Positions 26,973 to 44,988 of a stretch of DNA of 64,000 nt are shown piece after piece. Origin of the DNA: Sulfuricaulis limicola (GTDB lineage Bacteria > Pseudomonadota > Gammaproteobacteria > Acidiferrobacterales > Sulfurifustaceae); contig NZ_AP014879.1 of assembly GCF_002355735.1 (NCBI RefSeq), forward strand, positions 558,001 to 622,000, in the 5' to 3' direction. The notes beneath the pieces are model-generated. The model had not been told where the DNA came from. It did not search any database and saw nothing but the letters and a program-made list of their open reading frames with translations. Positions within the stretch are counted from its first letter, which is position 1. Every line of letters begins with the position of its first letter. The translations under genes were made by a program, and so were the position numbers.

Positions 26973-27572
26973 ATGAAAAAAATCACTCGCACCTTCCTCA
27001 CCGGCCTCGCCGTGACACTGCCGGTGGTATTGACTCTCTATCTCCTGGTCTGGGTGACGCTCACGATCGAGCGCGTCCTGGACAAGGTGTTGCACCTCGT
27101 GTTGCCGGAGGCGGTCTTTGTCCCCGGCCTCGGCCTGGTTCTGGGCGTGGTGCTGATATTCTTCGTGGGCCTGCTGATGCGCACCTGGGCCGCGCGCAAT
27201 ATCTTTGCCTGGACCGAGAAGCAGATGTACCGGGTGCCGGTGGTCAAGACGGTCTACGGGGCGCTGCGCGACTTTACTGTTTTCCTGTCGCGGCCACAGA
27301 AGCAGGGCCCGCAGCAGGTGGTGCTGGTGCGCTTCGGCAACACCGACCTGCGCGTCATGGGCTTCGTCACGCGCGATGATCTCGCCGGCCTGCCGCCAAA
27401 TATGAGTGAACCCGGGATGATCCTGGTGTACCTGCCCATGAGCTATCAGGTCGGTGGCTACACCGTGCTGGTCCCGCGCGCGGCGGTGCAGCCGCTGGAC
27501 ATGTCGTTCGAGGAGGCCATGCGCTTTACCCTGACGGCGGGGCTCAGCGTTCCGGCCGCGAAAAGCAGTTGA
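26973..27572 (+). CDS. DUF502 family membrane protein, 3' end altered by insertion
   Basis: 199 residues. Two N-terminal membrane helices (FLTGLAVTLPVVLTLYLLVWV; LVLGVVLIFFVGLLMRTW) and the cytoplasmic DUF502 domain (EKQMYRVPVVKTVYGALRDF, VYLPMSYQVGGYTVLVPRAAVQPLDMSFEEAM). Function unknown. The last ~34 codons are repeated 826 bases downstream, after higBA. The present tail PAAKSS differs from the tail encoded by the downstream copy (PAAKGVQE), which suggests that a cassette entered here and swapped the 3' end. Confidence 0.9.
   Translation: MKKITRTFLTGLAVTLPVVLTLYLLVWVTLTIERVLDKVLHLVLPEAVFVPGLGLVLGVVLIFFVGLLMRTWAARNIFAWTEKQMYRVPVVKTVYGALRDFTVFLSRPQKQGPQQVVLVRFGNTDLRVMGFVTRDDLAGLPPNMSEPGMILVYLPMSYQVGGYTVLVPRAAVQPLDMSFEEAMRFTLTAGLSVPAAKSS
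27465..27566. repeat. Direct repeat, left copy: 3' end of the DUF502 gene
   Basis: About 102 bp matching 28291-28392. The central 64 bases (27496-27559) are identical. The copies flank the higBA cassette. Confidence 0.92.
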
Positions 27573-27631
27573 ACCCGGTTTCTTTAATTTCTGATTTTCC
27601 GGGTTTCACGGCTGACTGATAAATAAGGCTG

Positions 27632-27669
27632 TAACCCGTAAGGTTGCAGCCTGTTACCGCATAGGTTAC
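27632..27669. promoter_or_regulatory. Candidate HigA operators upstream of higBA
   Basis: Two ACC-N5-GGT units, GTAACC-CGTAA-GGTTGC and TTACC-GCATA-GGTTA, lie 22 bases apart, so on the same face of the helix. They end 13 bases before higB. The placement suits autoregulation by the antitoxin. Confidence 0.45.
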
Positions 27670-27681
27670 GCTTGTGGGTAC

Positions 27682-27960
27682 ATGATCAAGAGCTTCCGGC
27701 ACAAGGGCCTGGCGGACCTGTTCCACACCGGCAACGCCCGCAAGGTTCAGGCCAAGCACGTGAAGCGCCTGCGGCTGATCTTGACCATGCTCAACGCCGC
27801 CACCCAGGCACGGCAGATGGATGCCCCGGGGTTGCGGCTGCACCCCCTCAAGGGCAAGCCGGAAGGCCGCTGGGCGGTGGACGTGGATGAAAATTACCGC
27901 GTGATCTTCCGTTTCCAGGAAGGCCACGCCTGCGAGGTGGACTATGGCGACTATCACTGA
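27682..27960 (+). CDS. higB: HigB-type toxin (RelE superfamily)
   Basis: 92 residues: MIKSFRHKGLADLFHTGNARKVQ is a typical HigB start and the end WAVDVDENYRVIFRFQEGHACEVDYGDYH matches the RelE-fold core. The family cleaves mRNA at the ribosome. The toxin comes first, as usual in higBA, with the antitoxin start 13 bases after its stop. It is inside the repeat-flanked insertion at the end of the DUF502 gene. Confidence 0.93.
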   Translation: MIKSFRHKGLADLFHTGNARKVQAKHVKRLRLILTMLNAATQARQMDAPGLRLHPLKGKPEGRWAVDVDENYRVIFRFQEGHACEVDYGDYH

Positions 27961-27973
27961 GAAGGCTTCGCGC

Positions 27974-28258
27974 ATGCACAACCCCGCGCACCCGGGCGAA
28001 ATTCTGCGGGAGATGTACCTGAAGCCCCTGAATATTACGGTCACTCAGGCCGCCAAGGCGCTGGGCGTCAGTCGCAAGCACGTCTCGGCCATCGTGAATG
28101 GCCGCGCGCCGGTGACGCCGGACATGGCGCTGCGCCTGGCTTCGGCCTTCGCCACTGAGCCCGAGCTGTGGGTGAACATGCAGGCGCAGTACGACCTGTG
28201 GGCGGTGAGCCGGCAGGCACGGCCGAAAGTGAAGGTGCTGGTGAAGAAAGCGGCCTGA
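27974..28258 (+). CDS. higA: HigA-type antitoxin (Xre-family HTH)
   Basis: 94 residues from the ATG at 27974, where the conserved HigA start MHNPAHPGEILREMY occurs. A lambda-repressor-like HTH follows (VTQAAKALGVSRKHVSAIVNGRAPVTPDMALRLASAF). Neutralises HigB and probably represses the operon. A longer start at 27944, overlapping higB, is possible but does not match the family. Confidence 0.93.
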   Translation: MHNPAHPGEILREMYLKPLNITVTQAAKALGVSRKHVSAIVNGRAPVTPDMALRLASAFATEPELWVNMQAQYDLWAVSRQARPKVKVLVKKAA

Positions 28259-28290
28259 AAGACATTGTATTTGCGGGAGGCGGCGACACC

Positions 28291-28392
28291 GCGCTGATCC
28301 CGCGCGCCGCGGTGCAGCCGGTGGACATGTCGTTCGAGGAGGCCATGCGCTTTACCCTGACGGCGGGGCTCAGCGTTCCGGCCGCCAAGGGC
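28291..28392. repeat. Direct repeat, right copy: displaced 3' end of the DUF502 gene
   Basis: Encodes ALIPRAAVQPVDMSFEEAM...LSVPAAKGVQE then a stop at 28402-28404, the likely ancestral C-terminus of DUF502, now without its gene body. Begins 32 bases after the higA stop. Confidence 0.92.
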
Positions 28393-28433
28393 GTGCAGGA
28401 ATAATCGAGCCCGGCCGTTTCAAGCAACGCCTT

Positions 28434-28523
28434 TTATTTTATGATGTGGCGCGCGGGCAACTTTTCCATGTGCCATTCACCGGTTTTCGCATAGTACCGT
28501 GAGCCGGTGAACACGTGCCAGAA
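28434..28523 (-). pseudogene. aprA: Remnant of a second aprA (last ~29 codons and stop)
   Basis: Read on the minus strand this gives FWHVFTGSRYYAKTGEWHM then EKLPARHIIK and a TAA stop. It aligns without gaps to the C-terminus of the intact AprA at 31.5-33.4 kb: WHV-T-S, KTGE, MEK-P and H are shared. An in-frame stop lies just upstream (GTG TGA TTA), and no further similarity is seen beyond 28523. The remnant is clearly divergent from the intact gene, so it is not a recent local copy. The rest of the 28.26-28.59 kb gap holds the displaced DUF502 tail and the leader of the next gene. Confidence 0.7.
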
Positions 28524-28593
28524 TAATCACACAAGTAACAACTGGCATTACTGTTAACTGTTATGTCCACAAACAAATAATGAGGGTAAAACT

Positions 28594-29010
28594 TTGGCAA
28601 GTAATGAAGCGCGGGCCCACTTCACATTGGCGGGCTATCATTTCAATCCCGACCACGTGACACAGCATCTTGGTATACAGCCCACCTCGATCGATGCTTC
28701 CGGTGCCAACAGTGAGATGAACAAGCCGGTGCTGAGCTCTTGGGAGTTGTCGACCGAGACGGTTACCGACGATATCGACGTTTACAAGTTGACGGACGAG
28801 CTGATCAAGCAAATCGAACCGGCGAAGGACAAGATCCTGGAAATCTGTAAAAGCCATAACCTGTCACCGAGGATCGGTGTGGTCCTGGTTTTGTCCGTTG
28901 ATAAAAAAGAATCAGCGCCCGATGTCGGTTTCGGTGCCAGAACGATTCGCTTCCTGGCAGATATTGGTGCATTTATTAATGTGGATTACCGGCTTTCCAA
29001 GCGTATTTAA
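28594..29010 (+). CDS. DUF4279 domain-containing protein
   Basis: 138 residues starting at a TTG codon with a good GAGGG site 7 bases upstream. The start ARAHFTLAGYHFNPDHVTQHLGIQPT and the later SWELSTET are typical of DUF4279, a small family often found near contact-dependent or toxin/immunity loci; the molecular function is not known. Codon use is more AT-rich than in the core genes. It stands alone between the higBA insertion and the apr region. Confidence 0.85.
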   Translation: MASNEARAHFTLAGYHFNPDHVTQHLGIQPTSIDASGANSEMNKPVLSSWELSTETVTDDIDVYKLTDELIKQIEPAKDKILEICKSHNLSPRIGVVLVLSVDKKESAPDVGFGARTIRFLADIGAFINVDYRLSKRI

Positions 29011-29103
29011 GCTTTAAATTAAATTAGCATGTGTCTGCTGTCACTTGCTAGTACTCGGTGTACAAGTGGCTTAGCCGTATTCAATTTTTCGGATATAAAT
29101 AAA

Positions 29104-29122
29104 GCACGCTATAAAAGCGTGC
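29104..29122 (-). terminator. Hairpin downstream of the 53-residue gene
   Basis: Perfect 7-bp stem GCACGCT-ATAAA-AGCGTGC. On the minus strand it is followed by TTTATTTATA. Likely end of the minus-strand transcript from the apr region. Confidence 0.6.
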
Positions 29123-29186
29123 ATATCACAAACTAAATCTGCCTTGAGTTGCCGCGCGGCCTTGCCGGTGCGCGCGGCTGACTGAC

Positions 29187-29348
29187 TCAGGGCTTCTTGG
29201 GGGTTTTGTAGGGCACTTCTTTCTGGAAAGGTTCCCAGGTGGTTTTATAGCCGACGAAGCCCTTTGCATTAGGCGCTTGTTGAGTCGTTTTCACAAAACG
29301 TGATTTGCCCTCGGGAACCTTGGGCCGGGTTTTAGGTGCATCGCTCAT
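29187..29348 (-). CDS. Small conserved-looking basic protein, 53 residues
   Basis: ATG to TGA in 54 codons: starts MSDAPKTRPKVPEGKSRFVK and ends FQKEVPYKTPKKP. A clear AGGAG lies 9 bases upstream of the ATG and a terminator hairpin lies 65 bases past the stop, so it has the layout of a real gene. It is rich in Lys, Pro and Thr, has no cysteines or membrane segment, and is probably mostly unstructured. I do not recognise the family. It is downstream of the apr-associated genes on the same strand. Confidence 0.6.
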   Translation of the reverse strand: MSDAPKTRPKVPEGKSRFVKTTQQAPNAKGFVGYKTTWEPFQKEVPYKTPKKP

Positions 29349-29470
29349 AATCATTACTCCTGAATGGTTGAAACGGGAAGAGTGTAAACAGGTATGTCAG
29401 TCCCTCCCACTTAACTGACGTCAATAACAAAATCCAGCGCTCTCCGATTTTCCTCAATCATCTGCTAGAG

Positions 29471-30493
29471 CTAATGGCAAGTGCTAGCGCACTTTGCCTT
29501 GTGAATTTGCTCCTCGCAATGCTTTAAACACAGCGGTTGAAGGGCGTGCGGAAAACATTCGATAATCATTTCAAACTCATCGGCCACTTCGTGGGCAAGT
29601 GTAGTGTCTTTTGTTAACTCAGCCAGTACACTTCGTACAGTAGACCTGTTTACCCTGCAGAGTACGGCCAGATGAATGGGGAGCTGCTGCTCCAGGCATA
29701 CTGTCAACGCCGTCTCGTAAGATCTTATTGCCTCTTCCAGGCGATCCGGGTTTTCTTCTGATTCACCCAAATGTTGCAGTACCGCACCACAGTTATTGTG
29801 CGCAGCGGCTAATTCGAAAGCGTAATTATCGGCATCGAGCACGGCCAGTGCATTTTTGTACGCGACAACGGACTTTTGAAAAGTACGGTTACCTTTCAGA
29901 AGTTTGCCGTGCGCATGGAAAGTGGCGCCAAGTTGATGCATGGCGGATGCCCATTTTTCAGGGGTCTCTTTTCGGGACCATTCCAATAATGCATTTGTAT
30001 AAGCATCGATGGCTGCTTTCAATAATTTCGCGCCATCCATCTGCCGGCCCAGGGCTTGCATCGCCGTTCCCAGGTTATATTGGGTGGCGGCCCAGTCGAG
30101 GGGCGACTTTTCCCGGTTATACTCATCCAGCGCGTTGTTAAAACACTGAATGGCCTTTTCATACAACGAAGCGTCTCTCTGCTGTTGCCCCTGCGCCGCC
30201 AGAATATTTCCCAGACTGTTCTGAGTCTCCGCCCAGGCGGATGGCTCCTGGTGGCGATATTCGTCTGTCAGCGAAATTTCAAGTGCCTCACGCACGCTGT
30301 CAAGAATATTGGAGCTGAAACGGTGCTGTTCATAATTTCCCCGCGTGTAAAGAAAATTATCGGCGACGGTTACCTGGGTATCCGGCGCAGCCGCTTCAAC
30401 CCACTCGTCACCCAGCCTGCCGATAGAATTGGCTAAAGCATGTTCCAAGGCCTTATTGTGCGGGTAAAACAGGTAAGTCTGAGAGAGCTTCAT
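29471..30493 (-). CDS. Tetratricopeptide-repeat protein
   Basis: 340 residues. From about residue 80 onward it is built of TPR-like units of unusual length (WAETQNSLGNILAAQG, WAATQYNLGTAMQALG, WASAMHQLGATFHAHG, LAAAHNNCGAVLQHLG), each containing an N/Q-x-LG core; the last helices carry several cysteines (CFPHALQPLCLKHCEEQIHKAKCASTC). No signal peptide. TPRs mediate protein-protein contacts, and the partner is unknown. It starts one base after the stop of the SlyD-like gene, so the two are co-transcribed, probably as part of the apr-linked group. Confidence 0.85.
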   Translation of the reverse strand: MKLSQTYLFYPHNKALEHALANSIGRLGDEWVEAAAPDTQVTVADNFLYTRGNYEQHRFSSNILDSVREALEISLTDEYRHQEPSAWAETQNSLGNILAAQGQQQRDASLYEKAIQCFNNALDEYNREKSPLDWAATQYNLGTAMQALGRQMDGAKLLKAAIDAYTNALLEWSRKETPEKWASAMHQLGATFHAHGKLLKGNRTFQKSVVAYKNALAVLDADNYAFELAAAHNNCGAVLQHLGESEENPDRLEEAIRSYETALTVCLEQQLPIHLAVLCRVNRSTVRSVLAELTKDTTLAHEVADEFEMIIECFPHALQPLCLKHCEEQIHKAKCASTCH

Positions 30494-31000
30494 TTATGTC
30501 CGGTTCATAATTTCATTTATGTCCGGGTCGGCGCCAACCGCTCCACCAAGTTCGATTTCTTCATCGGTAGCGTCACGTATAGTCAAGACCTCCAACCTGA
30601 ATACTACTTCTCTGCCACACAATGGATTATTTCCGTCGACGGTTAATGTTTTGTCATCGAATCGGGTAACGATAAAGTTTCTGGGCTCACCCTTTTCATT
30701 TTCCATGGTGATGGTCATGCCAATTTCCCGATATTCCTCTGGAACATTGTCGATATGATCGGTAAACACCAGCGACTCGTCTCTCTCGCCGTATAACAAT
30801 TTTGTGTCGACCGGTACTTCAATGACATCACCCACTTTTTTGCCATCCAGTTCTTTTGTCACCTGTTCAGACAGAACATCATTAACGCCATGAACATATC
30901 CCAGAGGATAATCAACGGTAACCAGCACGTCACCGGTTTTTTGATCGATGACCTTATAATTTAATTCAACGAATTTTTCGTTTTGTATTGTGTCTGACAT
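30494..31000 (-). CDS. SlyD-like FKBP-type peptidyl-prolyl isomerase
   Basis: 168 residues with a short FKBP domain and an inserted flap domain: VELNYKVIDQKTGDVLVTVDYPLGYVHGVNDVLSEQVTKELDGKKVGDVIEVPV, then NFIVTRFDDKTLTVDGNNPLCGREVVFRLEV, which is the SlyD signature NHPLAGx-L-F with small changes. It lacks the His/Cys-rich metal tail of E. coli SlyD. Expected to act as a cytoplasmic folding helper. Coupled with the TPR gene, and downstream of aprA with one small gene between. Confidence 0.88.
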   Translation of the reverse strand: MSDTIQNEKFVELNYKVIDQKTGDVLVTVDYPLGYVHGVNDVLSEQVTKELDGKKVGDVIEVPVDTKLLYGERDESLVFTDHIDNVPEEYREIGMTITMENEKGEPRNFIVTRFDDKTLTVDGNNPLCGREVVFRLEVLTIRDATDEEIELGGAVGADPDINEIMNRT

Positions 31001-31032
31001 AACTCGAAAAGCCTATTATAGATAAAGCTGTC

Positions 31033-31386
31033 TTAAAACAGCGTAGCGCCAAAGATTTTTACCTGGTCCTTTTCATAACCCAGCACCAGTCTGCCCAGCC
31101 ATTCGCCTTTATCCTTGGTATTAGGCTGTTTATAGAGAACCGTTACATATTCACCACGACGTATGATGCCGAGATATTTGTAATCGGTTGACAAGTTTTT
31201 CGCCAGATCGCTTCTGGCAAACTGCTTGCCCATCTCGATTTCATTAGCGCCCATTTTCATCGCCGTTGAGAAATTCCGGGTGAATGCACCGTAGTTTTTT
31301 TCATTCGAGTATTTAACCAGATCGGCCCACATGGGGTGCGCCAGCGCTAAAATCTCTTCATCTGTTTTTTCAGTAATGTTCATCAT
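31033..31386 (-). CDS. Hypothetical protein downstream of aprA
   Basis: 117 residues (two adjacent ATGs at the start). Sequence such as WADLVKYSNEKNYGAFTRNFSTAMK and the end WLGRLVLGYEKDQVKIFGATLF resembles small alpha+beta NTF2/cystatin-like proteins that measure about 110 residues, but I cannot assign a family. No signal peptide, no cysteines. It lies between the aprA terminator and the SlyD-like gene, 32 bases before the latter, on the same strand. Confidence 0.75.
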   Translation of the reverse strand: MMNITEKTDEEILALAHPMWADLVKYSNEKNYGAFTRNFSTAMKMGANEIEMGKQFARSDLAKNLSTDYKYLGIIRRGEYVTVLYKQPNTKDKGEWLGRLVLGYEKDQVKIFGATLF

Positions 31387-31457
31387 TCAATTCTTCATTT
31401 AAAACACAGCAGGTATTTCAGGGTTATCCATCGATATTGGCTGCACACCACCAAGAA

Positions 31458-31492
31458 AAAAAAGGCCAACATATAAAAATGTTGGCCTTTTC
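31458..31492. terminator. Strong bidirectional terminator between aprA and the downstream gene
   Basis: The stem AAAAGGCCAACAT pairs with ATGTTGGCCTTTT and has A- and T-runs at its ends. It separates aprMBA from the small-protein/FKBP/TPR genes, so the latter need either read-through or their own promoter in 31387-31457. Confidence 0.9.
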
Positions 31493-31545
31493 TCATGCAA
31501 ATAAATTTACATGGCTTGTATGATCAAGCGCTTATTGGCTTAGCC

Positions 31546-33411
31546 CTATTTATCACTGACCAAGTGGTAAAGAGGCGCTTTTTCCATGGTGTATTCACCC
31601 GTTTTGCGATCACGCTGAGAAACTGTCAGTACGTGCCAGTTTTTATCATCCAGTTTCATCGCATCACCACGGTAGTAGTAACCAGGCCAACGCGTTTCCT
31701 TACGGAACAAAGTATGTTGGAACACACTTTCAGAAGTACGCACACGGTGATGCAATTCCCACGCACGCAACAGCTCGTGGATATCGCTAGCCGCAATCTT
31801 CTCCATGTCTTCCTCAAGGCTTTTAAGCTTCTTGAGACCGATTTGGAGAAGTTTTTCGTTGGTCATGTAGTTGACACCAAAACCACCACAATACTCATCC
31901 ATCAGTTTCTGCAAACGATCCAGACCCTGTCTTGGATTGATGAAGTTTGGATTGACTGAACCACCAACGACTTCATTGCTGTAAACCCGGTAGGTTTCCA
32001 GCGGCTTGTAGATCTTCTTTTTCAGATTGGCAATCTGCTCGTCCGAAACTCGAATGCCTTCGGCCTTGCCATCGTCAATATATTTACAGGCCGCTTTGGC
32101 CGCCAGACGGCCTTCCGTGAAAGAGCCTGATGAGAAGGCGTGCGGTGTACCACCTACGGCATCACCCGCACCAAACAGACCTTCGACGGTGGTCATACGG
32201 TTGTAACCCCAGTAGTACTCCGGAGGGGAAACATCTTCCGGACCTGAGCACCATGCACCGCAACCGGTGGCATGCGAACCCATGACGTAGGGCTCGGAAG
32301 TGGTTAATTCCGGGTTTTCGTATTTCGGATCAACGTCCGTGGCTGCCCAAAGCACCGCTTGACCAACGGTCATGCCGAGGAAGTTGTGCCAGCCGATCTC
32401 TTCAAGATGAGGATCCTGGAAGGCTTCCATGGTCACCATGTGAATAGGACCGCGACCGGCATTCACCTCGGAGATAAAGGCGTGGTTACGTAAACAGGTC
32501 GGTATGGGTTTGTGGGACAAGTGCTGTCCTTCCGTGTCCAGGTATTCTTTACCGACCATTTCCGCCAGAGCCGGGAACCACTTGGATTCATATTCTTCGC
32601 CCAGGCCGTTTTGGGTATAAGTCTTGAGGTGCAGGAAGTAGGCACCGACTGGACCGTAACCATCCTTGAATCGAGCCAGTACGATACGGTTTTCCATCTG
32701 AGTCATCTTCGCGCCTGCTTCGATCATCAGACCATACGCCGATCCCGATGACCACGGTGCGTACCAGACTCGACCGGCACCTTCACCGACGGAACGCGGC
32801 TTGAAGATATTGGAAGCGCCACCGGCGCCACAGATAACGGTCTTGGACTTGAATACGTGGTAGTTACCCGTACGAACATTGAATCCAACAGCACCCGCGA
32901 CGCGGTTCTCTTTGGAATCATCCATTAGCAGATGAGTTACACAGACACGGTTGAATACCTTGTCTGCTGATTTCTTCGCTGCTTCGGCAACAATCGGCTT
33001 GTAGGATTCACCATGAATCATGATCTGCCATCGCCCTTCCCGCATGTAAGTACCCTTCTTAGGGTCTTTCATCAACGGCAGTCCCCACTCTTCAAACAGG
33101 TGAACAGAGGAGTCAACGTGACGCGCCATATCAAAGGCCAGATCCTCGCGCACCATGCCCATCAGATCCATGCGAGCATAACGGACGTGATCTTCCGGAT
33201 TGTTTTCGCCGAAACGGGTACCCATGTAACAGTTGATCGCGTACAAGCCCTGGGCTACCGCGCCGGAACGATCAATGTTGGCTTTCTCGGCAATGACGAT
33301 TTTTTTGTCCTTGCCCCAATATCTGGCTTCAAATGCAGCACCGGTGCCACCGAGGCCCGCACCGACGACCAGAATATCGATGTTGTCTTCAATAATTGTC
33401 TTGTAGCCCAT
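31546..33411 (-). CDS. aprA: Adenylylsulfate (APS) reductase alpha subunit
   Basis: 621 residues, FAD flavoprotein of the fumarate reductase/succinate dehydrogenase fold. The FAD Rossmann segment IDILVVGAGLGGTGAAFEARYWG is near the start, and the AprA-typical NIDRSGAVAQGLYAINCYMGTRFGENNPEDHVRYARMDLMG follows. In sulfur oxidisers it runs in reverse, converting sulfite and AMP to APS; in sulfate reducers it reduces APS. With AprM present and no dsr/qmo genes here, the oxidative direction is likely. It overlaps aprB by one base. GC is about half, lower than the flanking core genes. Confidence 0.98.
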   Translation of the reverse strand: MGYKTIIEDNIDILVVGAGLGGTGAAFEARYWGKDKKIVIAEKANIDRSGAVAQGLYAINCYMGTRFGENNPEDHVRYARMDLMGMVREDLAFDMARHVDSSVHLFEEWGLPLMKDPKKGTYMREGRWQIMIHGESYKPIVAEAAKKSADKVFNRVCVTHLLMDDSKENRVAGAVGFNVRTGNYHVFKSKTVICGAGGASNIFKPRSVGEGAGRVWYAPWSSGSAYGLMIEAGAKMTQMENRIVLARFKDGYGPVGAYFLHLKTYTQNGLGEEYESKWFPALAEMVGKEYLDTEGQHLSHKPIPTCLRNHAFISEVNAGRGPIHMVTMEAFQDPHLEEIGWHNFLGMTVGQAVLWAATDVDPKYENPELTTSEPYVMGSHATGCGAWCSGPEDVSPPEYYWGYNRMTTVEGLFGAGDAVGGTPHAFSSGSFTEGRLAAKAACKYIDDGKAEGIRVSDEQIANLKKKIYKPLETYRVYSNEVVGGSVNPNFINPRQGLDRLQKLMDEYCGGFGVNYMTNEKLLQIGLKKLKSLEEDMEKIAASDIHELLRAWELHHRVRTSESVFQHTLFRKETRWPGYYYRGDAMKLDDKNWHVLTVSQRDRKTGEYTMEKAPLYHLVSDK

Positions 33412-33893
33412 TAGTAGTACACCCCTTCTTTAAGCTTCAAGCCAGCTGTTTTCAGCGAACGTAAATCTCCGTCATCCAGGCGGATGTACTTAGGCTCGTT
33501 AAACAATAGCTCGCTGTCGCGCATTGCCTGGCTTGGAGCAGGTATCTCTGCAAATTTTGGAAACGCCGTGCCCCACGGTTTTGTCGTGATAGGCGCCAAC
33601 AGTTCCATGTCTTTTTTGCCGTTGCGGAACTTGATGCGCCAGGCAATCGTGCCTTTTTCCTCATCACGATGCACTCGTACCGAGTGGCCCAGTGGAGCGA
33701 AATCGGCATAACCACGCACATCAATGGCGTGGTGCGGGCAGGCTTTTACGCAGGAATAACATTCCCAACACATGTTGGGCTCAATGTTGTAGGCACGACG
33801 AAGCGTTTTATCAATGTGCATGATGTCAGATGGGCAGATATCAACGCACTGTCCACAACCATCACAACGAGTCATATATACGAAAGTTGGCAT
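33411..33893 (-). CDS. aprB: APS reductase beta subunit
   Basis: 160 residues. Two ferredoxin-type [4Fe-4S] motifs: Cys10-x2-Cys13-x2-Cys16-x3-Cys20 (CDGCGQCVDIC) and Cys42-x2-Cys45-x2-Cys48-x3-Cys52 (CWECYSCVKAC). A C-terminal tail wraps the alpha subunit in known structures. Carries electrons between AprA and the membrane partner AprM. Its TAA stop overlaps the aprA ATG. Confidence 0.98.
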   Translation of the reverse strand: MPTFVYMTRCDGCGQCVDICPSDIMHIDKTLRRAYNIEPNMCWECYSCVKACPHHAIDVRGYADFAPLGHSVRVHRDEEKGTIAWRIKFRNGKKDMELLAPITTKPWGTAFPKFAEIPAPSQAMRDSELLFNEPKYIRLDDGDLRSLKTAGLKLKEGVYY

Positions 33894-33930
33894 AATGTTC
33901 TCTCTTACTTATGTAATAGTTAAATGAATG

Positions 33931-34782
33931 CTAATAGTGGTCTGCTGACTCACGCTTGATACCATGCCCCATGTAGGCCGGGTTCTTGCCCATGTATTCC
34001 GGGATATCCGGGAATTTTGCTTGTACTGCAGGATCCGTCAGATCGTATTCTGCGGGCAGATTTTCTCTTGAACCATCTGCACGGGTAACACGCTTTTGAA
34101 AAGCGGCGGCAGGCTTAAAGAACATGTGCGCGAATTTCGACCACAGTACGCTGCCAAAAAGTGTCGTGCTCGAGATGATGAACAGAACGAAGAACAGGGT
34201 TGACCATCCGGCAACACCATTTGACTGTGTAAAGGACCAGGCCAAGGCGAATGTCGCAGTAGTGAGCAGCGAGACGATAAATAAATCTGCGCGTTCAAAG
34301 CGCCACCACGTCAGGCCTTCTGCTGAGACATCAACCCGGATAAAGAACCAGAACCAGTAACCACCCAGACAGAGCATTATTGCGCCGATATGCCAGAGTT
34401 GTGGCAGGATGGAAGGTGCCGGAGTGGCTGGGGTTGGATAACCGAAAATCATGATCGCGGTCGTCGCGACGAAAATAACGAAGCCATACATGGTCAGCAG
34501 ATGGGAAAGTCGGCGCCTTACGTTGCAGAATTCACCAGACGTTAACACTTCGTTTGCCAGAACTTTAACTGCAATCGAAGTTTTTTCTCCGATGCCCACG
34601 CTACGTTTTGCGCTCTTCTTCGCTTTTTTCGCATTTTCGAAAAAGTACTGAGCGCTCTTCTTGTGCATCATGTCGAGCATGGTTCCGCCTACCACCAGCA
34701 GGACCATCAAAATGATATACCCCTGCATGACGGCAACGGGTATTTGTGCCGAAAGTTCGGCAAAGGGATTGCTCATAAACAT
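33931..34782 (-). CDS. aprM: APS reductase membrane anchor AprM
   Basis: 283 residues with about six membrane helices, distantly like QmoC/heterodisulfide reductase cytochrome subunits: VMQGYIILMVLLVVGGTML, LTMYGFVIFVATTAIMIFGY, LWHIGAIMLCLGGYWFWFF, LFIVSLLTTATFALAWSF, LFFVLFIISSTTLFGSVL. His residues in or near the helices may bind heme. Proposed to pass electrons from AprBA to the quinone pool. The ATG at 34782 follows AGAGGA; a TTGACA-like hexamer lies at 34901-34906 on this strand, but I see no clear -10 partner. First gene of aprMBA. Confidence 0.92.
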   Translation of the reverse strand: MFMSNPFAELSAQIPVAVMQGYIILMVLLVVGGTMLDMMHKKSAQYFFENAKKAKKSAKRSVGIGEKTSIAVKVLANEVLTSGEFCNVRRRLSHLLTMYGFVIFVATTAIMIFGYPTPATPAPSILPQLWHIGAIMLCLGGYWFWFFIRVDVSAEGLTWWRFERADLFIVSLLTTATFALAWSFTQSNGVAGWSTLFFVLFIISSTTLFGSVLWSKFAHMFFKPAAAFQKRVTRADGSRENLPAEYDLTDPAVQAKFPDIPEYMGKNPAYMGHGIKRESADHY

Positions 34783-34921
34783 TAGAATATCCTCTTAACT
34801 GTCTACGATTAAATTTTTGTGCTGCCCTGCGCCGGTATGAGGCAGTTCTTTTTGCGATGACGGCCAAAGCATAACAGTCGAAATGTTGCCATTACAACCA
34901 TGTCAATATTGGGAGTTTTGG

Positions 34922-35056
34922 ATGAATAAACGTTCACTTCGCTGGCTTCGCAAGGGTAATGCACGGTCACGGGCGGCTATTCGCCTTCGGACCCGCTGGT
35001 TTACGCGGTCATCGGCGCGGGCAGCGCGTTCCGCCGCCAGGGAAGGTAGGCGGTGA
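34922..35056 (+). CDS. Possible small Arg-rich protein (44 residues)
   Basis: ATG to TGA in 45 codons with GGGAG six bases upstream. The product begins MNKRSLRWLRKGNARSRAAI; about a third of residues are Arg. It lies divergent to aprM, in the 34.78-35.14 kb gap, which is otherwise only leader sequence. It may equally be an accidental open frame in GC-rich DNA. Confidence 0.3.
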   Translation: MNKRSLRWLRKGNARSRAAIRLRTRWFTRSSARAARSAAREGRR

Positions 35057-35135
35057 AAAGAATTTGGGTTTATTAATCACTCCGAATTAGTATTCGGACC
35101 GGGGCAAGCCGTTGAACAGTGGGGGAGGAGTTTCG

Positions 35136-35741
35136 ATGGCCATGGAGTTCTGGTTCGAATTCGCCAGCACCTATTCTTATCCGGCCGCGTTGCGCATCGA
35201 GGCGCTGGCCCGGTCGCAAGGCGTGCCCATCGTTTGGAAGCCGTTTCTGCTGGGCCCGATTTTCCGCACGCTGGGCTGGAGCGATTCCCCCTTCAATCTC
35301 CAGCCTGTAAAAGGACGCTACATGTGGCGCGACCTGGAGCGCATCTGCGCGGAGCTGGCTATCCCGTTCCGCCGCCCCTCGCAGTTCCCGCGCAACGGCC
35401 TGCTCGCGGCGCGCATTGCCTGCTGGTTTGAGGGGAAGCCCTGGGTTCCGGAGTTTGTGCGCTCCGTGTACCGGGCGAATTTCGCCGAAGATCTGGATAT
35501 TTCAAACGCCCCGTTGCTGGAGAGCTATCTCGACAGCCTGGGCCAGCCCGGCGCCGCCCTGATCCAGCAGGCGCAGTCACCCGAGAGCAAAGAGAAACTC
35601 CGCGCCCAGACCGAGCGCGCCGTGGCGCTCGGGATCTTCGGGGCGCCGATGTTCGTGGTCGGCCCGGAACTGTTCTGGGGAAATGACCGGCTGGAGGCGG
35701 CTTTAGCGTGGTACAAGTCTCATCCACAAGCGGAACATTGA
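35136..35741 (+). CDS. DsbA-family 2-hydroxychromene-2-carboxylate isomerase-like protein
   Basis: 201 residues from the ATG at 35136, which has GGAGGAG five bases upstream. Thioredoxin-fold/kappa-GST-like pattern: FWFEFASTYSYPAALRIEALARSQGVPIVWKPFLLGPIFRTLGWSDSPFNLQPVKGRYMWRDLERIC, ending in GIFGAPMFVVGPELFWGNDRLEAAL with the family cis-proline (GAPMF). No CxxC. Family members isomerise chromene carboxylates or act as glutathione-dependent enzymes; the actual substrate is unknown. Base use is core-like, unlike the apr genes just upstream. Confidence 0.88.
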   Translation: MAMEFWFEFASTYSYPAALRIEALARSQGVPIVWKPFLLGPIFRTLGWSDSPFNLQPVKGRYMWRDLERICAELAIPFRRPSQFPRNGLLAARIACWFEGKPWVPEFVRSVYRANFAEDLDISNAPLLESYLDSLGQPGAALIQQAQSPESKEKLRAQTERAVALGIFGAPMFVVGPELFWGNDRLEAALAWYKSHPQAEH

Positions 35742-35775
35742 CCGCGTTCTCAGCAATTCCGCCGCCAAGGGCGCA
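35739..35775. repeat. Possible degenerate third copy of the DUF502 3'-end repeat
   Basis: TTGACCGCG..CTCAGC..TTCC-GCCGCCAAGGGCG resembles the end of the right copy (28353-28391) with two small indels; further on, AATGATCGAGCCCAG (35829-35843) resembles AATAATCGAGCCCGG (28400-28414). Suggestive only. Confidence 0.35.
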
Positions 35776-35888
35776 TGATTTTCTGGTCAACGCAATGGCG
35801 TTGGCGGAGCAGGCTGGTGCTCTCGTAGAATGATCGAGCCCAGTCTTTAAATTCTCATGCTGGACCCAACAAGAAGGCGCATGGAGAT

Positions 35889-37058
35889 ATGGAAATCGAC
35901 GAAGCGTACAAAGGGCGGGAACACTCGCTGATAAAACATGAGTTGTTGAAGGGCTATCTTGAAGTTTTGTTGAGCATTGTGGGTGTGAGCGGGGTGAAAA
36001 AATTCACTTACGTGGATTGTTTTGCCGGGCCGTGGGGTGATGACACAGGTTCGCTTGCTGGAACATCCATTGCTATTTCGTTGGAGATTCTGACGAAGGT
36101 CCGACATACCTTGGAAGCAAAGCATGGAGTACACGGGCTTGAGTTTCGGGCAATCTATGTCGAAGCGGCAAAGAGACGATACCAACGACTTTCCGAATAT
36201 CTAGACAAGAATTCTCCGAAGGGAATCAGCTGTCACGCATTGAATGGCGATTATGCGGCGCTTCAGGATGATATATTAAAACTGTGTGGTAATGAGAGCT
36301 TTACCTTCTTTTTTGTGGACCCAATGGGGTGGGTGGACGTAGGAGTTCCAAGACTTGCCAAGTTGTTGCGCAGGCCAAAATCAGAGTTTCTGATCACGTT
36401 CATGTACGACTTTCTGAATCGCGCCATTGGTATGGCTGATTACCGTGAGCAGATTTCGCAGATGCTGGGAAAGCTTGGTGAAAAGGACTATGAACAATTG
36501 GACCGTCTGTCCACGCAGGACAGGGCGGATTGGGCAGTTCGTAAGTACCGTGAACAACTGAAAGCCATGATGGGGCCAGATGGCAAATATCCGGCGCGAG
36601 CATTCCATGCCGATGTGCTTCATAAAGCCAAAGAACGGGTACATTACCATATGGTCTATCTGACACGACATCACAAAGGTATTGTGGAATTTGCTAAGGC
36701 TTCAGAAAAGATCGATTCGCTGCAAAAGATTGTGAGGACTCAGACGAAGCTTGATTCGAGCAGACAAAGGAATCTGTTTTCGGCCGAACAGTGGGTTGAG
36801 CACGAGAATGGCGTTGCGACAAACCTGGACGATGTGAAGGCCTATTGGCTTAGGCAATTAACCGACCAACCGGTGCGATATGACGAAACGCGGTTAGCAA
36901 ATATGCTTGAAGAAACTGGCTGGTTGACCCGTGACTTTCAGGATGCGTTTCGGGAATTACAGGCTGCGAAGAAGGTCGAAAATCTCGATGGAAGTCCTCG
37001 ACGAACTAAGCACCCAATACATTTTAGTGATAGCGAACGACTCAGGAGGTGCGTATGA
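35889..37058 (+). CDS. tcmP: Three-Cys-motif partner protein TcmP
   Basis: 389 residues. The N-terminal half reads as a Rossmann, methyltransferase-like fold: YVDCFAGPWGDD (41-52) in the motif I position, IYVEAAKRRYQRL after strand 2, and FFFVDPMGW (~141-148) in the motif IV position. The C-terminal half is helical and could be a winged helix. TcmP proteins are always found next to a Gp37/Gp68 three-Cys protein, as here, with a four-base overlap (ATGA). Function is not established. GC is clearly lower than neighbours, indicating acquisition. The ATG follows a GGAG-like site. Confidence 0.9.
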   Translation: MEIDEAYKGREHSLIKHELLKGYLEVLLSIVGVSGVKKFTYVDCFAGPWGDDTGSLAGTSIAISLEILTKVRHTLEAKHGVHGLEFRAIYVEAAKRRYQRLSEYLDKNSPKGISCHALNGDYAALQDDILKLCGNESFTFFFVDPMGWVDVGVPRLAKLLRRPKSEFLITFMYDFLNRAIGMADYREQISQMLGKLGEKDYEQLDRLSTQDRADWAVRKYREQLKAMMGPDGKYPARAFHADVLHKAKERVHYHMVYLTRHHKGIVEFAKASEKIDSLQKIVRTQTKLDSSRQRNLFSAEQWVEHENGVATNLDDVKAYWLRQLTDQPVRYDETRLANMLEETGWLTRDFQDAFRELQAAKKVENLDGSPRRTKHPIHFSDSERLRRCV

Positions 37059-37801
37059 GCACAGTGTCTCGCATTGAATGGACCGAACAGACTTGGAACC
37101 CAACCACGGGTTGCACGAAGATTTCCCCAGGCTGCAAGCACTGTTATGCCGAAACTATGGCACGACGCTTGAAAGCCATGGGTGTGAAGGGCTATGAGAA
37201 CGGCTTCAAGCTAAACATTCTTGCAGAGCGATTGGCTGAGCCACTAAGGCGTCGTAAGCCAACTACATACTTCGTCAACTCTATGAGTGATCTGTTTCAC
37301 AACGAAATTCCATTTGAGTTTCTTGACCAAGTATTTGATGTTATTCGGAGCACGCCACAGCATACCTATCAAATACTAACCAAACGCGCGGTGCGGATGC
37401 ACAAATACTTCGTTCCGGGAGAGCGATTTGTGCCAGGGAATGTATGGTTGGGGGTCTCGGTCGAGAATCGGAAATACGGCCTACCTCGCATTGATGAACT
37501 GCGGGAGGTTGAGGCAAGTATTAGATTCCTCTCTGTTGAGCCATTACTTGAAGACCTCGGCCAGATCAACCTGACCGGCATTCATTGGGTAATTGTTGGT
37601 GGTGAATCTGGGCCGAAGGCACGACCCATGAAACCTGAATGGGTAGCAGATATAAAGGAGCAATGCGAAGAAGCAGGCGTGGCGTTTTTCTTCAAGCAAT
37701 GGGGCGGTTGGGGTGCAGATGGCAAAAGGAGGCATAAGAAAGAGAATGGACGTCTTTTCGATGGGAAGACGTGGGATCAGATGCCGGCTTTGATTGGGTG
37801 A
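37055..37801 (+). CDS. Phage Gp37/Gp68 family protein (DUF5131, three-Cys motif)
   Basis: 248 residues. The three-cysteine motif is Cys20-x6-Cys27-x2-Cys30 in TWNPTTGCTKISPGCKHCYAE, likely an Fe-S site; later motifs YFVNSMSDLFHNEIP, YQILTKRAVRM, NVWLGVSVEN, RFLSVEPLLEDLG, WVIVGGESGPKARPM and FFKQWGGW are all family hallmarks. The barrel-like pattern resembles radical-SAM-related folds, but activity is unproven. A perfect AGGAGGT lies 4 bases upstream of the ATG at 37055, which overlaps the tcmP stop. Confidence 0.93.
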   Translation: MSTVSRIEWTEQTWNPTTGCTKISPGCKHCYAETMARRLKAMGVKGYENGFKLNILAERLAEPLRRRKPTTYFVNSMSDLFHNEIPFEFLDQVFDVIRSTPQHTYQILTKRAVRMHKYFVPGERFVPGNVWLGVSVENRKYGLPRIDELREVEASIRFLSVEPLLEDLGQINLTGIHWVIVGGESGPKARPMKPEWVADIKEQCEEAGVAFFFKQWGGWGADGKRRHKKENGRLFDGKTWDQMPALIG

Positions 37802-37886
37802 CATAAAACAATCAGAGGCAGATCGAACGTAATTAGCACTAATTAGAGGACAGACCGAGCTGCCCCTATAAGTTGAGGACACGCAC

Positions 37887-38405
37887 GTGCCAACACCATC
37901 AGTGGACATCGCAACCAACATTTGGCCACTTCTGCAAGTAATAATCGGCGGCACTATTGCGAGCATCGGAGGATGGACTGTTGCCGTCGTCAATCAAAGA
38001 ATGACCCGAAAACATGAACAGCTTATAGTTGAACGTGAAAAGTTGGAAAATTTGGTCAGCGCAATTTTTGACCTTGAACTGTGGTTAAAGAAAGAAGAGA
38101 ACTGTTACTTGTTTAGCCACCCGGAGAATTTGGAACCATCTCCCGCTGCGAGGATCACAACAATCGCGGTTCTATATTTCCCAGATATGGAGCCAGCCGC
38201 CGCTCAGCTCATGGTAGCAACAGACAATCACCGAAGCTTATTAATGGACATCCGTCTGGACATGAATACAAAAAATCTACAAAAAGCAACGCCTGACCAT
38301 GTAGCTATATTAGCGAAGGAGAACACTATTGCGACGGTGAATGCAGCCCGACAAAAACTCCTCATACACGCGAAGACCAAGATGAAGGAATTGTTATCTA
38401 CATAA
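37887..38405 (+). CDS. Hypothetical single-pass membrane protein
   Basis: 172 residues: one N-terminal membrane helix (IWPLLQVIIGGTIASIGGWTVAVV, ~12-35) followed by a probable coiled coil (NQRMTRKHEQLIVEREKLENLVSAIFDLELWLKKEE) and an alpha-helical cytoplasmic part. No recognised domain. It shares the AT-rich composition of the tcmP pair and follows it after 85 bases, so it may belong to the same module. The single-pass helix plus coiled coil resembles small accessory or effector proteins of phage-defence loci, but this is only analogy. Confidence 0.7.
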   Translation: MPTPSVDIATNIWPLLQVIIGGTIASIGGWTVAVVNQRMTRKHEQLIVEREKLENLVSAIFDLELWLKKEENCYLFSHPENLEPSPAARITTIAVLYFPDMEPAAAQLMVATDNHRSLLMDIRLDMNTKNLQKATPDHVAILAKENTIATVNAARQKLLIHAKTKMKELLST

Positions 38406-38442
38406 AGACAATCGGGATCAGAGAACAATTACGCTTAACTCC

Positions 38443-39036
38443 CTAGGCAATCTGCTCCACCAGCGCCGCCAGCGAACCGGCGGGGCGCACCTCGGGCGTC
38501 ACGTTGTAACCCAGGAGCTTGCTGATCTGGCTGGTGGAGAACATGCCGATCACGCGTTGGGATTGCGTGGCCTTGTCGGTCTCCACCACCAGCGCGTGCT
38601 GGCGATTCTGGGCGTTCAGGGTCTCGACGATGTCGCCCACCCGCGCGTCGCGCACGGCCAGCGCATCGAGCGCGCAGATATCCGGTTGCGGCGTCATTAC
38701 CGCCGCCACCGTGATAGCAGCGCGCGGCACCTGCATCTGCCGGGTGATCTGGATCGGCCGCTCGCCCATGATGTCCTTCGCGGTAATGAGACCGATGATC
38801 TGATCGGCATTATTCATCACGAACAGCAAGCGCACGCCGGCGGTTTTCATTTTCTTGAGGGCCACGTCAATGGGGAGCTCGGGGTGCGTGGTGATTGGGT
38901 GCACCGTCTTGAAGCTGGTCATCACTGCCGCCGCGGGACTGTCGAGCTTCACCATCTCCGGCGGCGCGGTCGGGTGCCCCAGGGTCGACTGCGGCTTGAG
39001 CGAAATGCACTTGATGGTTTCGTATGAGTAGGGCAT
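38443..39036 (-). CDS. CBS-domain protein
   Basis: 197 residues from the ATG at 39036, preceded by AGGAGG. Two CBS units: PAAAVMTSFKTVHPITTHPELPIDVALKKMKTAGVRLLFVMNNADQIIGLITAKDIMGE and ITVAAVMTPQPDICALDALAVRDARVGDIVETLNAQNRQHALVVE...VIGMFSTSQISKLLG. Such pairs bind adenine nucleotides and sense energy state. No fused enzyme. Stands alone, convergent with the AT-rich membrane-protein gene; marks the return to core-like GC. Confidence 0.9.
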   Translation of the reverse strand: MPYSYETIKCISLKPQSTLGHPTAPPEMVKLDSPAAAVMTSFKTVHPITTHPELPIDVALKKMKTAGVRLLFVMNNADQIIGLITAKDIMGERPIQITRQMQVPRAAITVAAVMTPQPDICALDALAVRDARVGDIVETLNAQNRQHALVVETDKATQSQRVIGMFSTSQISKLLGYNVTPEVRPAGSLAALVEQIA

Positions 39037-39187
39037 GGAGAACCTCCTTAGTGTGGTTCGTGTTCCCTTGCCGCCAATATTACGCCTTGCGCCCGCCAAG
39101 CCAAGCCGCCCGGTAGAATTCGCCTCGATTCACGGGTAGACTGCGCCCCCTGCCTTGATACGGCGCCTTGGCGCCACCCCAGTTCCC

Positions 39188-41434
39188 ATGCAAACCGCGC
39201 GTGATATTTTTTCCTACCGCAAGTACTGGGCCAAGCGCTTCGGTCCGGCGCCGTTCCTGCCCATGTCGCGCGCGGAGATGGACGAACTCGGCTGGGATTC
39301 CTGCGACATTATATTGGTGACCGGCGACGCCTACGTGGACCTGCCGAGCTTCGGCATGGCCATCGTTGGGCGCGTGTTGGAGGCGCAGGGCTTTCGCGTC
39401 GGGATCATTGCCCAGCCGGACTGGAAGAGCGCCGAGGCCTTCAAGGCCCTGGGCCGGCCTAATCTTTATTTCGGCATCAGCGCCGGCAACATGGATTCCA
39501 TGGTCAACCGCTACACCGCCGACCGCAAGATCCGCTCGGACGACGCCTACACCCCGGGCGCGGAGGGCGGCAAGCGCCCGGATCGCTCGGTGATCGTGTA
39601 CGCCCAGCGGGCGCGCGAGGCCTATGGCGATGTACCTATTATTGTCGGCGGCATCGAGGCCAGCCTGCGGCGCATCGCGCATTACGATTACTGGTCCGAC
39701 AAGGTACGCCGCTCGATCCTGCTGGATGCCAAGGCCGACCTGCTGGTGTACGGCAATGCCGAGCGCCAGGTGGTCGAGATCGCGCATCGGCTCGCGGCCA
39801 AGGAGCCGATTGCCAGCATCACCGATATTCGTGGCACCGCCTTCGTGCGCAACGGCCTGCCGGAAGGCTGGAGCGAGCTGGATTCCACGCATCTGGATAC
39901 GCCTGGGGCGTTGAATCCGCCGGTGAATCCTTATGCGACTGAGGAAGAAATGCGCGGCGCGCCCCCTCCCCCTAGCCCCCTCCCGCGAGGGGAGGGGGGA
40001 TCAAGTGGTTCACGAGGGGAGAGGGATTCGACTATTAATGTCGTGCAATTACACAAGCGCGCGCCGAAACTCGACCGCGAAAAAACCGTGGTCCGGCTGC
40101 CGGCGTTCGAAGCCGTGGCCAACGATCATATTTTGTATGCCCACGCCTCGCGCGTGATGCATCTAGAAACCAACCCCGGCAACGCGCGCGCCCTGGTGCA
40201 GCGCCACGGCGACCGCGACGTGTGGCTCAACCCGCCGCCGCTGCCGCTCACGACCAAGGAAATGGACGGCATCTACGAGCTGCCATACCGGCGTCAGCCG
40301 CACCCGGCCTACGGCAAGGAAAAAATCCCGGCCTACGAGATGATCCGGTTTTCCATCGCCATCCAACGCGGCTGTTTCGGCGGCTGCACCTTCTGTTCCA
40401 TCACCGAGCACGAAGGGCGCATCATCCAGAACCGCTCGGAGGAGTCGATCATCCGCGAGATCGAGACCATCCGCGACAGCGTGCCGGGCTTCACCGGCGT
40501 GATCTCCGACCTCGGCGGGCCGACGGCCAACATGTACCGGCTGCACTGCAAGAGCAAGGAGATCGAATCCGCCTGCCGCAAGCCCTCGTGCGTGTATCCC
40601 GACATCTGCCAGAACCTGATTACCGATCATGCGCCGCTGGTGCATCTGTACAAGCGGGCGCGCGAGCTGCCGGGCATCAAGAAGGTGCTGATCGGCTCCG
40701 GCGTGCGCTACGACCTCGCGGTTCAGTCGCCGGCGTATGTGAAAGAACTGGTGCAGCACCACGTCGGCGGCTATCTCAAGATCGCGCCAGAGCATTCCCG
40801 CGAGGGCCCGCTCACCAAGATGATGAAGCCGGGGATGGGGGCGTACTACAAGTTCAAGGAGCTGTTCGACAAGTATTCGCGGGAGGCGGGCAAGGAACAG
40901 TACCTGATTCCCTATTTCATCGCGGCGCATCCGGGCACCACCGACGAGGACATGCTGGAGCTGGCCCTGTGGCTGAAACAGAACGGTTTCCGCGCCGACC
41001 AGGTGCAGGCCTTCCTGCCAAGCCCGATGGCGACCGCGACCGCGATGTACCACTCCGGCAAGAACCCGCTGCGCAAGGTGACGGCGAAGAGCGAGGGCGT
41101 GTACATCCCCAAGGGCCTGAAGCAGCGCCGCCTGCACAAGGCCTTCCTGCGCTACCACGACGCCAACAACTGGCCGATGCTGCGCGAGGCACTCCGGCGC
41201 ATGGGCCGGTCCGACCTCATCGGCTCCGGCAAGCACCAGCTCATCCCGACCTACCAGCCGGCCGGGACTGGCCAGGTGCATGAGGGACACCGCGGCGGCA
41301 AACGTTTCGCCACGCAGCACACCGGCCTGCCGAATTTCACCCCGAAGAAATCCGGCCAGCGCTCGCGTCATGGTCAGCGGCCGGGCAAGACGCTGCATCC
41401 CGGCAGCCCGACCGGCGCGGGGAAAAGGCGGTAA
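39188..41434 (+). CDS. ygiQ: YgiQ family radical SAM protein
   Basis: 748 residues. The N-terminal UPF0313 domain starts [21 protein letters not shown]. The radical SAM cluster is Cys396-x3-Cys400-x2-Cys403 (CFGGCTFCS), followed by [14 protein letters not shown] and [12 protein letters not shown]. The basic C-terminus is typical. The reaction is not known. Around residues 259-280 an in-frame insertion reads [13 protein letters not shown]; it is encoded by a palindromic intergenic-type repeat, in a poorly conserved linker before the radical SAM core. The ATG at 39188 agrees with the family N-terminus. Confidence 0.93.
39963..39999. repeat. Palindromic repeat (copy 2) inside ygiQ
   Basis: CCCTCCCCCTAGCCCCCTCCCGC opposite GAGGGGAGGGGGG, followed by AGGGGAGAGGG at 40015-40025. 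Same family as 21584-21626 and 54983-55025. Its length keeps the ygiQ frame open. Confidence 0.8.
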
Positions 41435-41442
41435 TCCCACGC

Positions 41443-41505
41443 CGTCATTCCCGCTCCCCGCCTACTGCATGCGGGGACAAGCTTCGCGGGAATGACGACA
41501 GGAGT
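41443..41505. repeat. Palindromic TCATTCCCGC repeat between ygiQ and dinB
   Basis: GTCATTCCCGC ... GCGGGAATGAC with an inner stem CCCCGC..GCGGGG. A two-stem unit of the same family as 26910-26940. Confidence 0.75.
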
Positions 41506-41599
41506 GGGCGCGTACCATGCGCCATCCTGTCGGTTGACGCGCACAGCCTGTCGGACATTCATTCCCGGGACGTACATTTCATTACGTGCTCATGTTACG

Positions 41600-42814: not shown

Positions 42815-42832
42815 ACCCCTGCGACGCTGCGC

Positions 42833-43030
42833 TCAGGCCGCGCGCCGCCTCTCGATCTTGGATGCCCGCATCAAGTGTGCACGCAGCTCCGGCGTGTCTT
42901 CATGTCCGTGGACGGTGATGGCGTGTTGCACGGCGGCTTCTATCAGTTCCGACTCGCTGTCGGCAAAGATGGCGACGGTGCAGTTAACCTCGCTGGGAAA
43001 ATCTCGGCAGTCTATGAACTTCCTGATCAT
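42833..43030 (-). CDS. DUF1059 small protein (paralogue A)
   Basis: 65 residues: MIRKFIDCRDFPSEVNCTVAIFADSESELIEAAVQHAITVHGHED. GGAGGAG sits just upstream of the ATG. DUF1059 proteins are small, of unknown role, with a conserved C-D/R-D pair and H-x-H near the end. A close relative lies 268 bases upstream on the same strand. Confidence 0.88.
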   Translation of the reverse strand: MIRKFIDCRDFPSEVNCTVAIFADSESELIEAAVQHAITVHGHEDTPELRAHLMRASKIERRRAA

Positions 43031-43297
43031 GGCTCCTCCATTTTATTGTTTCGAGTTTAACTTTCGGAAAAGACCAGCCAATTCAGGACCCCCCACATCC
43101 ATTTCGTGAGTCCTTTACCAAGCTTAATCCTCGAGAGAGGTGTGTCAAGCAACACGGTCTCGTGTCCTCGGTGTTGTCCTGTGACTGAATGACGCGCGGG
43201 GCAGGGATGACAAACTGTCAGAATATTCGACACAGCTTGAGGACTTCAGGTCAAAATGCGTACCAACCAGCCGGACACACCAGCTCAGGGCGGGCAA

Positions 43298-43498: not shown

Positions 43499-43571
43499 GC
43501 CTCCCCCATGCGCGGCCGGGTTGACCCGGCATCGGGAACATAGACGCGAACAGGGTTAGTCTCATTCCATT

Positions 43572-44825: not shown

Positions 44826-44851
44826 GGGAGGTTGATGTAGCAATTAGTAGA

Positions 44852-44984: not shown

Positions 44985-44988
44985 ACTG

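Follow-up and report, generated by a model that had tools for sequence, protein, structure and literature searches.

Nested traces of probable in situ replacement at an apr locus of Sulfuricaulis limicola

APS reductase, an enzyme central to sulfur-based energy metabolism, is encoded in the sulfur-dependent lake bacterium Sulfuricaulis limicola by an operon that lies between pieces of an operon of another type. In the window, i.e. the whole stretch of 64,000 nucleotides analysed here, an intact apr cassette of one AprA type (N-type) carries at its left edge the relic 3' end of an aprA of a second type (T-type) and at its right edge a short T-type sequence. The cassette is itself a mosaic with edges of the type found in the family and a core of a type otherwise found in other families (Table 1). 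This arrangement probably results from two nested in-place replacements at the apr locus. At first an entire aprM-aprB-aprA operon of the T-type (Thiobacillus-like, lineage I) would have occupied the site, and a family-type N-type apr cassette would have displaced it in place, leaving the last 28 aprA codons and ~70 bp upstream of aprM, one piece per side. Later, in the S. limicola line, the homologous segment of another family's cassette would have replaced ~5.8 kb of this cassette, with one crossover within the DUF4279 gene and the other within the 5' end of aprM; the likely mechanism is homologous recombination in the conserved ends. The position and type of every stratum can be read from the sequence comparisons; the order of events is suggested by the nesting of the strata, and the new operon would putatively have taken over the function of the old one.

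The sequence-only reading had proposed from the tail of the displaced gene that the locus swapped one apr lineage for another (xenologous replacement). The proposal is supported and can be extended, T-type DNA being present on both sides and the intact operon being a mosaic of two later arrivals. The tail is only half of the evidence for replacement; the far-side T-type fragment and the mosaic operon are the rest. Lateral transfer of aprBA has so far been argued from trees, and the layered scar in the S. limicola chromosome reveals the replaced operon type, the position of the joins and, through the nesting, the probable order.

Table 1. Features of the apr locus (positions in the window)
Feature	Position	Strand	Basis
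Relic 3' end of T-type (Thiobacillus-like, AprM-linked) aprA, 28 codons and stop, without start codon	28434..28520	-	Own-genome and 60-genome matches, DNA match to G014, profile scores, tail at the matching cassette edge in G003
Left family-type stratum: left flank of the cassette with the 5' part of the DUF4279 gene	28521..28869		60-base bins, site fit, tree; right limit estimated by best fit
DUF4279 protein, first gene of N-type apr cassette; left crossover inside (~28869)	28594..29010	+	Family search, site fit, tree
Foreign core, apr cassette type otherwise in other families (G387, G111, G136, G209)	28869..34716		Bins, site fit, AprA tree; limits are best-fit estimates
TPR-like protein of N-type apr cassette	29471..30493	-	Below Pfam cut-offs; beside N-type apr in relatives
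FKBP/SlyD-like peptidyl-prolyl isomerase-like protein of cassette	30494..31000	-	Below curated cut-offs; beside N-type apr in relatives
117-aa protein without family	31033..31386	-	Adjoins N-type aprA in 16/16 relatives' cassettes read
Intact aprA (N-type)	31546..33411	-	TIGR02061, 1077 bits, cut-off 642
Intact aprB, lineage I form without KGxD/E loop	33411..33893	-	TIGR02060, 215 bits, cut-off 136
aprM (SCL_0602); first ~22 codons in family-type stratum, most of the rest in foreign core	33931..34782	-	Family search, genome paper, site fit
Right family-type stratum: aprM 5' end and upstream region	34716..34829		40-base bins, site fit
T-type relic, 53/72 identical to G014 DNA situated 86-157 bp upstream of its intact T-type aprM	34830..34901		DNA comparison, 57-genome search

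T-type DNA at the two edges of the cassette

The minus strand of 28434-28523 translates as (F)WHVFTGSRYYAKTGEWHMEKLPARHIIK*, the stop occupying 28434-28436 and the 28 codons 28437-28520. The 90-base AprA-like C-terminus with stop codon that the sequence-only reading described is confirmed, its assignable part being 28 residues, as AprA homology stops at WHV and the F codon (28521-28523) lies beyond it. The frame has no ATG and stop codons stand immediately upstream. Searched in its own genome (G000, assembled as one contig of 2,864,672 bases), the tail matched itself and the intact aprA (E 3e-4), from which it is clearly different, as had been claimed, with 52% identity over 27 residues. Among 60 genomes, it aligned in register to the intact AprA C-termini of G014 (81%), G029 (79%) and G032 (70%), with E values of 2.8e-12 to 1.1e-10, and also to those of G019 (70%) and G030 (63%). 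At the DNA level, the match to G014 spans 28426-28521.

Profiles of the AprA types were built from 68 AprA rows, 10 of 78 rows having been dropped beforehand for want of an anchored tail; in a leave-one-out trial 67 of the 68 anchored tails were assigned to their own type. Many of the T-type loci among these rows came from a search with a profile that includes the remnant itself. The S. limicola tail scored 62.8 bits with the T-type profile, 50.4 with that of a third type, 31.7 with the N-type of the intact copy and 21.7 with lineage II. The tail is thus of another AprA type than the intact copy, given these scores and identities of 81, 79 and 70% against 52%, and it belongs to the T-type subgroup of the lineage I AprA of sulfur-oxidising bacteria (SOB). 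A chance match to AprA is ruled out, since shuffled tails reached at most 10.3 bits on the T-type profile (1676 scored of 2000 shuffles), and a lineage II origin is ruled out by its low score. The tail might also be taken for a diverged duplicate of the intact aprA 3' end, as a 110-bp duplicate of the end of a DUF502 gene is present ~1 kb away; such an origin is refuted by the profile scores and is extremely improbable, the DNA match to G014 moreover including the stop codon and the 8 bases that follow it.

On the right side, 34780-34829 matches the region upstream of the N-type aprM in G006, G007 and G011, and the match to G014 takes over from 34830. When 34826-34920 was compared with 57 genomes, the G014 site was found with E 9.9e-8 (best 50 bases), the next best hit outside the window having E 0.02. 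This right-hand match is a single 72-bp stretch in a single genome, G014 (represented twice, as L097 and L121), and was absent from the other 34 of the 36 T-type and third-type loci searched (some of them cut short of aprM), including G029 and G032. A coding remnant of a T-type aprM was ruled out on this side, as three T-type AprM proteins searched by tblastn in 34791-45000 gave no E value below 0.22. For AprA and AprB, the best tblastn hit in the same interval (E 0.018, 21% identity, ~6 kb away) was taken as chance. The intact T-type operons of G014, G029 and G032 are arranged aprM-B-A, and at the S. limicola site only DNA upstream of the T-type aprM remains of that end.

In situ replacement is indicated by an old and a new type of different lineages, by remains of the old type flanking the new operon left and right (on the right, the one match in one genome) and by a conflict between the gene tree of the new operon and the species tree. 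An alternative departing from this explanation in its first step only is that the T-type operon had decayed to a stub before the N-type cassette was inserted into or beside it, without any direct exchange. Remnants without replacement at their own site, as in G011 (orphan tail), G046 (aprM'-'aprA scar and a lineage II copy) and G049 (on another contig), speak for such a course. It is nevertheless rather unlikely, as T-type DNA is present at both cassette edges with the order and orientation expected (the tail on the left, 34830-34901 on the right), an arrangement that exchange explains more easily than an insertion that happened to hit a stub.

A mosaic cassette and its accessory genes

The order of the N-type cassette, as read in 16 relatives, is DUF4279 (+), a small ORF, TPR, FKBP-like, 117-aa ORF, aprA, aprB and aprM, and the block from TPR to aprM was complete in all 16. 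As variants, G007 and G187 have the small gene past DUF4279, and G111 has its DUF4279 gene on the far side of aprM; no match to the small gene was found in G011 and G353. The homology between the window and 13 cassettes starts at 28569-28603 in 10 of them, the T-type tail adjoining this left end, and stops at 34726-34825 in 12, and no other window neighbour tested was found in the cassette stretches of the 16 relatives. The accessory genes from DUF4279 to the 117-aa ORF (28594-31386), including the small ORF, the TPR-like and the FKBP-like genes, travel with N-type aprBA-aprM across families; around the operons of the other types that were read (three T-type, two of the third type) no match to them was found. 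They may contribute to the assembly of the N-type APS reductase. The intact operon presumably oxidises sulfite to APS.

The edges and the core of the cassette do not share one history, a single history for both being rejected by clade tests. In 60-base bins the left stratum is 88-97% identical to G003/G006 versus 67-77% to G387/G136/G209; G111, which carries its DUF4279 gene elsewhere, does not enter the left-edge comparison. Most bins of the core are foreign-type, and the last 110 bases are family-type again, the 40-base bins of the right stratum showing 78-100% identity to G006/G007/G015 versus 62-85% or no alignment to G111/G387/G136/G209. Over 1031 sites that separate family from foreign cassettes, the best inner segment was 28869-34716, with foreign-like sites amounting to 10/69 in the left edge, 683/942 inside and 2/20 in the right edge. 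This fit was reached by none of 100 permutations, in a test that takes sites as exchangeable and ignores the correlation between neighbours. Within the core, 33360-33660 and 34260-34560 are closer to the family type; the core is therefore not uniform and was patched further.

The trees agree with this partition. The DUF4279 DNA tree (17 genomes) places the window with G003, G006, G015 and G011 at 100/100, and a foreign grouping was rejected (p-AU 6.6e-5); the DUF4279 gene of the congener G007 falls outside the family group. In the AprA tree (38 rows), the window groups with G387, G111, G136 and G209 at 100/100, and a grouping with G006, G007 and G015 was rejected (p-AU 9e-4). The window AprA is 95-96% identical to those of the same four genomes, which are from other families, and 90% to those of the congeners G006 and G007. 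RpoB identities, obtained from nine of ten genomes (not G075), stand in the opposite order, with 96.8% for G006 and 95.6% for G007 against 71.9% for G387, 74.2% for G111, 78.1% for G136 (over 932 residues only) and 69.6% for G209. The history of the AprA gene therefore conflicts with that of the species, and aprA used on its own is a misleading taxonomic marker, since the S. limicola gene is closer to those of other families than to those of its congeners G006 and G007.

Since the crossovers of the second round lie inside shared genes, homologous recombination would account for it; at the first-round joins, an informal look revealed no clear homology. A broader reading, proposed tentatively and somewhat doubtful, is that the aprMBA cassette and its accessory genes constitute an exchange module that recombines across families via its conserved ends (DUF4279 gene and aprM 5' end), so that a central energy enzyme would be repeatedly swapped at one site, with the aprA 3' end possibly a preferred breakpoint. 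The relics of G000 and G003 start within ~3 bases of each other and that of G011 ~4-5 codons upstream.

T-type remnants in the order and the scar shared with a congener

The 57 genomes of the order (Acidiferrobacterales) include three with an intact T-type operon (G014, G029, G032), first found via full-length AprA, and six with a remnant (G000, G003, G011, G046, G047, G049). Comparison of synteny in relatives, which had been suggested as a check, favours the proposal, as the T-type is indeed intact in the former three, though in gene surroundings that differ from those of the window. The other suggested check, whether the tail groups with a different AprA lineage, likewise came out in favour through the profile scores given above. 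A search of the named genome collection with the T-type tail profile retrieved 31 loci, including Thiobacillus, Sedimenticola, Rhodocyclaceae and unnamed proteobacteria; the tail terminates a full or contig-cut aprA frame in 29 and the other two are the remnants of G046 and G049. The AprA tree, in which one row (G046) is out of frame on a false long branch, resolves the T-type as one group (SH-aLRT 80) and the N-type as another (100); one partial row (L125) was excluded from the AprA trees. A third AprA type (G013, G019, G025, G030; L016, L017, L018, L019) adjoins the N-type in the tree; the AprA of G013, 76% identical to the window copy, branches next to the N-type.

The remnants take several forms. 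In G046 the first aprM residues are fused to the last 116 residues of aprA in an open frame (L094:9931-10401), the T-type operon having undergone an internal deletion; this genome also carries a lineage II copy. In G049 a decayed aprA sits on a contig different from that of the N-type copy, and G047, in the same gene context, has a tail with an internal stop. G011 carries an orphan tail of ~32 codons far from its N-type operon. Counting G000 with G003 and G047 with G049 once each, there are at least four distinct scars. Six remnants among 57 genomes of the order allow one to count how often one type of APS reductase was given up.

The tail might be a small functional peptide gene, its frame being open over 27-28 codons in G000, G003 and G011; the absence of an ATG and the stops directly upstream make this very improbable. 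Furthermore, the differences between the tails of G000 and G003 are spread near-evenly over codon positions 1, 2 and 3 (8/5/10), unlike those between the intact genes of G014 and G029 (2/3/16), which points to relaxed constraint on the tails. The stop codon is lost in G003, and the internal stop of the G047 remnant also speaks against a peptide gene.

In the congener G003, the tail (L092:3542-3628) is 77% identical to that of the window at the DNA level and is followed by the matching cassette edge; its contig ends within the cassette, so only the left edge is readable. Between tail and cassette edge, G003 has ~100 bases that are absent from the window and match the left flank of the G006 cassette (90% over 98 bases). 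The endpoints of the T-type sequence in the window and in G003 agree within ~3 bases and the cassette-side junctions differ by ~100 bp. Most likely, if short of proof, both derive from one old junction, the window having undergone a ~100-base deletion. Past the tail the left flanks of G000 and G003 differ, the wider site thus having been rearranged: G003 carries there a gene with an alpha-amylase domain that has a match in G001 and none at E 1e-100 in G000, so that the left flank was rearranged in one of the two.

The composite of T-type tail and N-type cassette could instead have been assembled in another organism and have arrived ready-made, for G003 shares the tail and cassette edge with the window and has this other gene past the tail. 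Such an arrival is improbable: the stratum at the left edge has the type of the genus and family, the T-type piece on the right finds its match in a member of the family, and among the order's six remnant loci, in the stretches read, cassette genes stand next to the tail in G000 and G003 alone. Both this alternative and the prior decay of the T-type operon overlap in their later steps with the two nested replacements favoured here.

Known replacements and the surrounding segment

Gene displacement in situ, by which distant orthologues replace genes while the position is kept, is known to produce mosaic operons. Xenologous replacement of aprBA between sulfur oxidisers was reportedly described by Meyer and Kuever in 2007. 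The S. limicola locus likewise holds a distant orthologue at a kept position; it differs from such displacements in that a legible scar of the old operon persists and that the new operon was in turn overwritten inside its own edges. Displacement in situ being already known, the readable two-round scar around an operon of energy metabolism is the new part. With the terms used, the literature search found no published account of remnant aprA genes, nor of xenologous replacement involving pseudogenes. For Thioalkalivibrio sp. HK1, the available text of one study concludes from tree position that lineage II apr putatively replaced lineage I (PMC5099947). Lateral exchange of apr loci between sulfur oxidisers is common to that case and to S. 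limicola, in which, as far as that text allows comparison, the old and new types are both lineage I (with aprM), physical pieces remain on both sides and two rounds are nested. According to the same text, the S. limicola AprA clusters with lake clones (Ox16) previously assigned to Sideroxydans (PMC5099947).

SOB lineage I is characterised in the available portion of its description by aprM and lineage II by qmo and typically by a KGxD/E loop in AprB (PMC2211403). The intact operon of the window agrees with lineage I, having aprM beside aprBA and an AprB N-terminus without the loop (CDGCGQC); the genome's own second apr copy (C1:2519739, 46-50% identical to the window copy) reads CDGCKGQDK. T-type and N-type operons both have aprM and an AprB without the loop, hence the displaced and the present operon would be two subgroups of lineage I. 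Beyond that description (in its available portion), AprA identity between these subgroups is only ~60-65%.

The accessible text of the S. limicola genome paper reports two aprAB copies, SCL_0600-0601 (with aprM SCL_0602) and SCL_2474-2473, gives the number of pseudogenes as 'unknown' and does not mention the tail (PMC5024460). Judged by order, SCL_0600-0601 should be the window operon and SCL_2474-2473 the copy at C1:2519739. For Sulfurifustis variabilis, the available part of a proteome study reports products of both aprBA copies (PMC6397845).

The cassette lies in a variable segment (27573-39106) between the DUF502 gene and a YgiQ-like gene. In G006, other DNA (~4.2 kb) stands between these two genes and the apr cassette is on another contig. 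The last ~110 bp of the DUF502 gene are duplicated with 94% identity (27453-27562 and 28279-28388) and flank higBA (27682-28258), which looks as if this toxin-antitoxin pair had arrived at the 3' end of the gene with a spare copy of that end. In G007, an 88% identical higBA region lacks the DUF502 end and is located elsewhere, between the DsbA-like and 35889 genes.
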